This document shows positions 43,901 through 43,945 of a DNA stretch of 64,000 nucleotides, one piece after another. Position 1 is the first letter of the stretch. Every line of letters starts with the position of its first letter. The notes beneath the pieces are model-generated. The model did not search any database. It was not told the DNA's origin and saw only the letters and a list, made by a program, of their open reading frames with translations. A program made the translations under genes and the position numbers. Source of the stretch: an uncultured Armatimonadota bacterium (GTDB taxonomy: Bacteria; Armatimonadota; Fimbriimonadia; Fimbriimonadales; Fimbriimonadaceae); assembly GCA_903927025.1 (NCBI GenBank), contig CAIYLG010000013.1:62001-126000 (forward strand). Direction: 5' to 3'.

Positions 43901-43945
43901 TGGTGGACCGTGTAGGGCTCGAACCTACGACCCGCTGATTAAGAG
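43901..43945 (-). tRNA. tRNA-Lys (CTT) 3' half only: anticodon loop to CCA, attachment-site remnant
   Basis: Read on the minus strand, the segment begins with the anticodon loop CTCTTAA (anticodon CTT). It continues through the 3' anticodon stem TCAGC, a T arm GTAGG-TTCGAGC-CCTAC, the 3' acceptor strand ACGGTCC and ACCA. The expected 5' anticodon strand (GCTGA) does not precede it, and similarity stops exactly at the loop. This is the footprint of a tyrosine recombinase that crosses over in the anticodon loop. It cannot make a functional tRNA. Confidence 0.85.

Follow-up and report, generated by a model that had tools for sequence, protein, structure and literature searches.

In the window analyzed here, a stretch of 64,000 nucleotides (positions 62001-126000 of the 206-kb contig C13), the 3' half of a tRNA-Lys(CTT) gene lies on the minus strand at 43901-43945 and directly abuts a truncated nucleotidyltransferase (NTase) gene. 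Our data identify this half as the attachment (att) end of an island belonging to a family of tRNA-Lys islands, in agreement with the first-pass annotation, which had called the site an island boundary. The island itself, with a defence operon as cargo, lies to the left. It probably entered the NTase gene as a secondary site, the host having no canonical attB, and then lost its integrase end.

Identification of the half tRNA-Lys gene and its counterparts in the genus

The minus strand from 43945 to 43901 reads CTCTTAATCAGCGGGTCGTAGGTTCGAGCCCTACACGGTCCACCA, and all 45 nucleotides are identical to positions 32-76, ending in CCA, of the intact tRNA-Lys(CTT) gene in six relatives (G001, G003, G005, G009, G010, and G018), while the intact tRNA-Lys(CTT) of two further relatives has a near-identical 45-base 3' half. 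The first identical base is C32, at the start of the anticodon loop, and the base preceding it is T here versus A in the intact genes. The fragment therefore starts at a crossover subsite, as Islander requires of a tDNA 3' fragment. The presumed crossover region is the 7-bp anticodon-loop sequence CTCTTAA (43939-43945, minus strand), where identity to the intact tRNAs begins, as it does in the halves of G005, G006, and G016. A terminator hairpin (43865-43888, minus strand) travels with the tRNA tail, and similar tails were found behind the intact tRNA-Lys genes of G001, G006, G009, G011, and G017. ARAGORN and Rfam reported no tRNA at the half, as is to be expected when only half of the gene is there, and their sole call in the window was a tRNA-Glu(CTC) at 24228. 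The GC profile displayed no clear step across the boundary. The earlier description of a tRNA-Lys(CTT) running from the anticodon loop to CCA, with its terminator and no 5' half, was thus confirmed, and neither finding that had been named as speaking against an att footprint was made: no 5' half adjoins it, and the 45-mer occurs once in the host assembly (G000).

Twenty genomes of the genus, the host included, were compared. The half was matched in nine of them, counting the window; the other eight have an intact gene of their own, and three of these (G005, G006, and G016) possess half copies as well, all of the tRNA-Lys halves beginning at the anticodon loop. G005 holds a textbook tRNA island in classic order, a 21-kb restriction-modification island composed of the intact tRNA-Lys (C6:1031427), genes for HsdR, a DprA-like protein, a helicase, a DUF4357 protein, HsdS, HsdM, and a tyrosine integrase (PF00589, 9.5e-30), and the half (C6:1052716). 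The earlier proposal was right that the half is an att footprint, that the island behind it used a tyrosine integrase, and that crossover took place in the anticodon loop. The G005 half (L045:10716) reads CTTTTAA versus CTCTTAA in its intact gene, a mismatch within the presumed crossover region. In G006, an integrase adjoins the half and the intact gene is on a different contig, and in G016, the half and the intact gene are on two contigs.

Related integrases were also found in tRNA-Asn islands, one in G004 (about 17.7 kb) and one in G005 (about 6.3 kb). Two tRNA genes whose 3' halves are similar thus appear to serve this integrase family. The G004 island (C31; L191:1669-19489) occupies tRNA-Asn(GTT), and an HD_4 gene is located near its tyrosine integrase, which is related to those of the tRNA-Lys islands. 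Tandem sites with 11-12 bp spacing were also seen beside tRNA-Lys in G005 (L045:10588 and L044:3562), G006 (L046/L047), and G017 (L126). Their sequences vary by genome (TTGACACCA, TACCGC, and TTGACAGCA), which suggests several integrase specificities at one tRNA site.

Orientation and cargo of the island

Two direct repeats 12 bp apart, the integrase arm-type sites of the P' arm, are present at 43825-43847 (minus strand), with TTGACACCACTTTTGACACCA at 43825-43845, and a third arm-like copy, inverted (TGACACCACTT), is located at 43781-43791 (plus strand). Each arm of the G005 island contains an exact copy of the 21-bp TTGACACCACTTTTGACACCA, one on the P' arm behind the intact tRNA and one on the P arm between the integrase and the half. 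This match upheld the earlier remark that the adjacent arm-like repeats point left, to the defence operon. Such sites next to the core are a supporting feature, not an Islander filter. In the host genome, no second TTGACACCACTTTTGACACCA arm site was found, the single copy being the one left of the half. Since the arm sites of the G005 island, the terminator, and the tail all stand left of the half, the left side corresponds to the island's P' end; the cargo genes also read toward the att end, as the restriction genes of G005 do. On these sequence grounds, the half is one end of the island itself, which extends leftward from it. The first-pass annotation had left both directions open, and the placement of the element to the right, which it had derived from simple tRNA logic, was rejected: the host was found to have no matching tRNA, the sequence left of the half, with its tail, terminator, and arm sites, is the P' side known from G005, and no integrase was found to the right. 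A lone half tRNA therefore does not locate an island by tRNA logic, as an island can carry the half to a non-tRNA site. The tRNA-Glu gene at 24.2 kb was also considered as a bound of the island and discarded, since that tRNA is intact and its left flank is collinear with contig C123 of G014.

The cargo is a restriction-like defence operon (32702-43760) on the plus strand. It encodes a PLD (HKD) and SNF2 helicase protein (32702-36046; PF13091 and PF00176; PADLOC C3a139 HKD+Snf2, 3.7e-135), an Eco57I/TaqI-type (IIG-like) methyltransferase (36043-39924; PF07669, 8.5e-33; PADLOC REase_MTase_IIG), an SMC/RecF-like ATPase (39921-41591; PF02463), a DUF4357 protein (41588-42208; PF14267, 4.4e-20), a gene for which is also found in the G005 island, and a GmrSD_N (DUF262) and HNH nuclease protein (42519-43760; PF03235, 6.6e-20, and PF01844, 2e-9), whose gene is the last of the cargo and reads to the att end. 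A search of the 19 remaining genomes of the genus gave no close homologue of the methyltransferase. This enzyme recurs in several phyla, mostly beside the helicase, and this scatter of the two genes is as expected for horizontally carried cargo; one homologous cassette is present in a Fimbriimonadaceae MAG (L171). The PLD/SNF2 helicase and the IIG-like methyltransferase, often joined by the SMC-like ATPase (window 32702-41591; L147-L174), form a cassette conserved across several phyla.

Absence of the canonical target gene from the host assembly

The host assembly is a draft of 66 contigs with 98.4% completeness, and a search of it for an intact tRNA with this 3' half gave no match within 3 mismatches except the half itself. 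The cognate intact tDNA that Islander expects on the same replicon and in the correct orientation was accordingly not found. The nearest match to the canonical 5' half, with 3 mismatches, belongs to the host's own and only tRNA-Lys(CTT), on contig C54. This gene differs along its full length, and because its 3' half is divergent too, the half in the window cannot be its displaced tail. Comparison of the half with an intact tRNA-Lys(CTT) elsewhere in the genome, which the first-pass annotation had proposed, thus met with a gene that differs throughout, and a matching one was not found. G014, the closest relative by the genes shared here, has the same divergent tRNA-Lys and lacks the canonical gene. 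The divergent genes of G014 and of C54 share one neighbour gene, from which we conclude that the divergent gene is a separate locus of both species. As far as the draft assembly goes, the primary attB is therefore absent from the host, as would be expected for insertion at a secondary site.

We consider it possible, though only tentatively, that the canonical tRNA-Lys(CTT) attB was lost in the G000/G014 lineage, which has the divergent isoacceptor instead, and that the tRNA-Lys island family was thereby redirected to a protein gene. If true, this loss would be a natural case in which a changed tRNA set blocks a landing site and strands entering islands. As a separate observation, an HsdR-like type I restriction C-terminal fragment follows the divergent tRNA-Lys(CTT) of the host (C54:932-1486, minus strand), possibly representing another island.

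The NTase gene and the junction

To the right of the half, at 43946-44634 (minus strand), lies an interrupted and decayed NTase gene (MNT/AbiEii-like) with a small upstream partner, the presumed insertion site, whose intact counterpart is present in G014 (C55:44.9-45.8 kb; L057). The pseudogene contains a frameshift and an in-frame TGA and is cut at the half. Its product is 88% identical to an intact 189-amino-acid ORF of G014, and the G014 copy is 30 residues longer past the junction, with no att site adjoining. The first-pass annotation had reported that the junction truncates an AbiEii-like gene; both the truncation and the kind of enzyme, a nucleotidyltransferase, were correct, whereas a Pfam match to the AbiEii family is lacking, the only matches being weak ones to DUF6036/DUF2204, and MNT-like NTase is a safer name than AbiEii-type. 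Further to the right, a 175-amino-acid ORF (window 44859-45386, minus strand) includes the sequence RYGKIIVV..FFFKHMRPLIDGGHIF, reminiscent of a degenerate GyrB/TOPRIM region, and gave no Pfam match.

A synteny comparison with a relative lacking the operon, which had also been recommended, was provided by G014 contig C55. It carries the intact NTase together with genes that in the window flank the operon on its left and the NTase on its right, in shuffled order and without the operon, so that the NTase is best read as an interrupted resident gene. The earlier view that a recombination event took place here was right; it joined the half to the NTase gene. At the junction, the codons are CGC CAG CCA TCT CTT AAT CAG in the window and CGT CAG AAG TCG CTC AAC TGG in G014, corresponding to RQPSLN and RQKSLNW, respectively, and close homologues have RQ..L[DN]W. 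The S-L-N codons of the NTase coincide with the crossover sequence CTCTTAA, and close homologues retain L-[D/N]-W. Where window and G014 differ within the S-L-N codons, the change is at a third position; overall, 45% (31/69) of third positions differ between the two alleles. The diverged G014 allele matches the 17-bp canonical attB at 9/17 positions and the 7-bp core at 5/7, levels that 1.3% and 0.9% of contig positions, respectively, reach by chance.

The missing left end

The left-flank gene (31216-31964, minus strand) has homologues in both G003 and G010 that lie outside islands (neither an integrase nor an att tail was found with them). Its homology stops at 31964, and island homology begins at 32095 with an HD_4 gene lacking its 5' part (32095-32442, plus strand). 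In the G004 tRNA-Asn island, a full-length homologue of the HD_4 gene is located close to the integrase. No integrase was found on contig C13, the four PF00589 matches being elsewhere in the genome, and the island thus contains no integrase gene of the kind that Islander expects. The NTase 3' end gave nothing significant on C13 or genome-wide, the genome query being short, diverged, and not sensitive. With the left end missing, only one of the two junctions of a secondary-site insertion was found. A deletion with its breakpoint in the interval 31965-32094 would explain why the integrase, the P arm with the second arm site, attR, the NTase 3' piece, and the HD 5' part are all missing. Inside this interval, the sequence TTGG-GGACCGTGTTGG at 32005-32021 weakly resembles the tRNA-Lys 3' end (94% over 18 columns against the allele of G016, with a contig-wide E of 0.54). 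As a second half, it is locally suggestive and not outstanding over the whole contig.

Origin of the junction

We infer that the NTase gene served the island as a secondary attB and that a deletion later took away the island's left end. The ancestral island would have comprised an integrase end, the HD gene, the defence operon, arm sites, the terminator, and the tRNA 3' half, with tRNA-Lys(CTT) as the normal target of its integrase. In a host missing the canonical gene, the integrase would have joined the attP core CTCTTAA to the Ser-Leu-Asn look-alike in the NTase gene, the lack of the usual target being the most likely reason for insertion into an unrelated protein gene. The predicted product is the NTase 5' part followed by the tRNA 3' half, terminator, P' arm, and cargo. 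The later deletion (breakpoint 31965-32094) would have cost the locus its integrase, P arm, attR, and NTase 3' end, leaving the island unable to excise. As neither the other junction nor the integrase is present, no complete att pair proves the event; the NTase gene, read in the allele of another species (G014), matches the core in part (9/17), and the tRNA-tail-like stretch at 32005-32021 is not predicted by this model.

NTase and toxin-antitoxin-like genes are frequent island cargo. The NTase could come from a second element at the same tRNA-Lys att site, with the half standing between two islands and the intact tRNA farther right and lost. Tandem islands at tDNAs are known (PMC4383910), but such an arrangement predicts an integrase and P-arm sites before the half, as in G005 and G006, whereas here a truncated coding region abuts the core. 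Moreover, the G014 NTase continues past the junction beside no att site, and no intact tRNA-Lys or integrase was found right of the half, which makes a second element unlikely. We also regard it as improbable that a canonical tRNA-Lys(CTT) with its island originally stood at this locus, lost its 5' half, and was joined to the NTase fragment by an unrelated rearrangement. The possible second decayed tRNA tail at 32005-32021 and the proximity of tRNA-Lys to tRNA-Glu in G005 and G009 (about 50 kb or less) would fit such a history, but it requires a chance break exactly at C32 and a chance agreement with the S-L-N codons. In addition, the flanks here are unlike the neighbourhoods of intact canonical tRNA-Lys genes in those relatives that were examined, and the G001 neighbours have their counterparts at C13:39-48 kb, some 60 kb off. 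An assembly error or chance resemblance, conceivable in a draft of so many contigs, is very hard to reconcile with an exact 45-bp half, a terminator, and G005 arm sites within a 206-kb contig whose flanks on both sides share genes with G014.

Insertion at a secondary site followed by loss of the integrase end may be compared with known systems. The island resembles Islander class A tDNA islands (PMC4383910) in its 3' tDNA fragment, anticodon-loop crossover, tyrosine-integrase arm sites, and defence cargo, and differs from them in having no cognate intact tRNA and no integrase and in that the fragment adjoins a protein gene. In the absence of its attB in trnS-leu2, ICEBs1 inserts into protein genes with 2-12/17 mismatches, and it excises from secondary sites poorly or not at all, excision being undetectable at 8, 11, and 12 mismatches (PMC3715440). 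In our reading, the two cases would have in common a tRNA-targeting element in a protein gene, a partial 17-bp site with a 7-bp spacer, and an absent primary site; unlike ICEBs1, the present case is natural and decayed, has lost one end, and owes its secondary-site status to inference rather than to observation. If our reading is right, it would be a natural counterpart of the laboratory ICEBs1 experiments on secondary sites and would explain a defence operon fixed in the chromosome after loss of mobility. SGI1 is likewise an island that has been found integrated at a secondary attachment site (PMC2297512), and it differs in its primary site, given in one account as the 3' end of the protein gene trmE, not a tRNA gene (PMC8409611).
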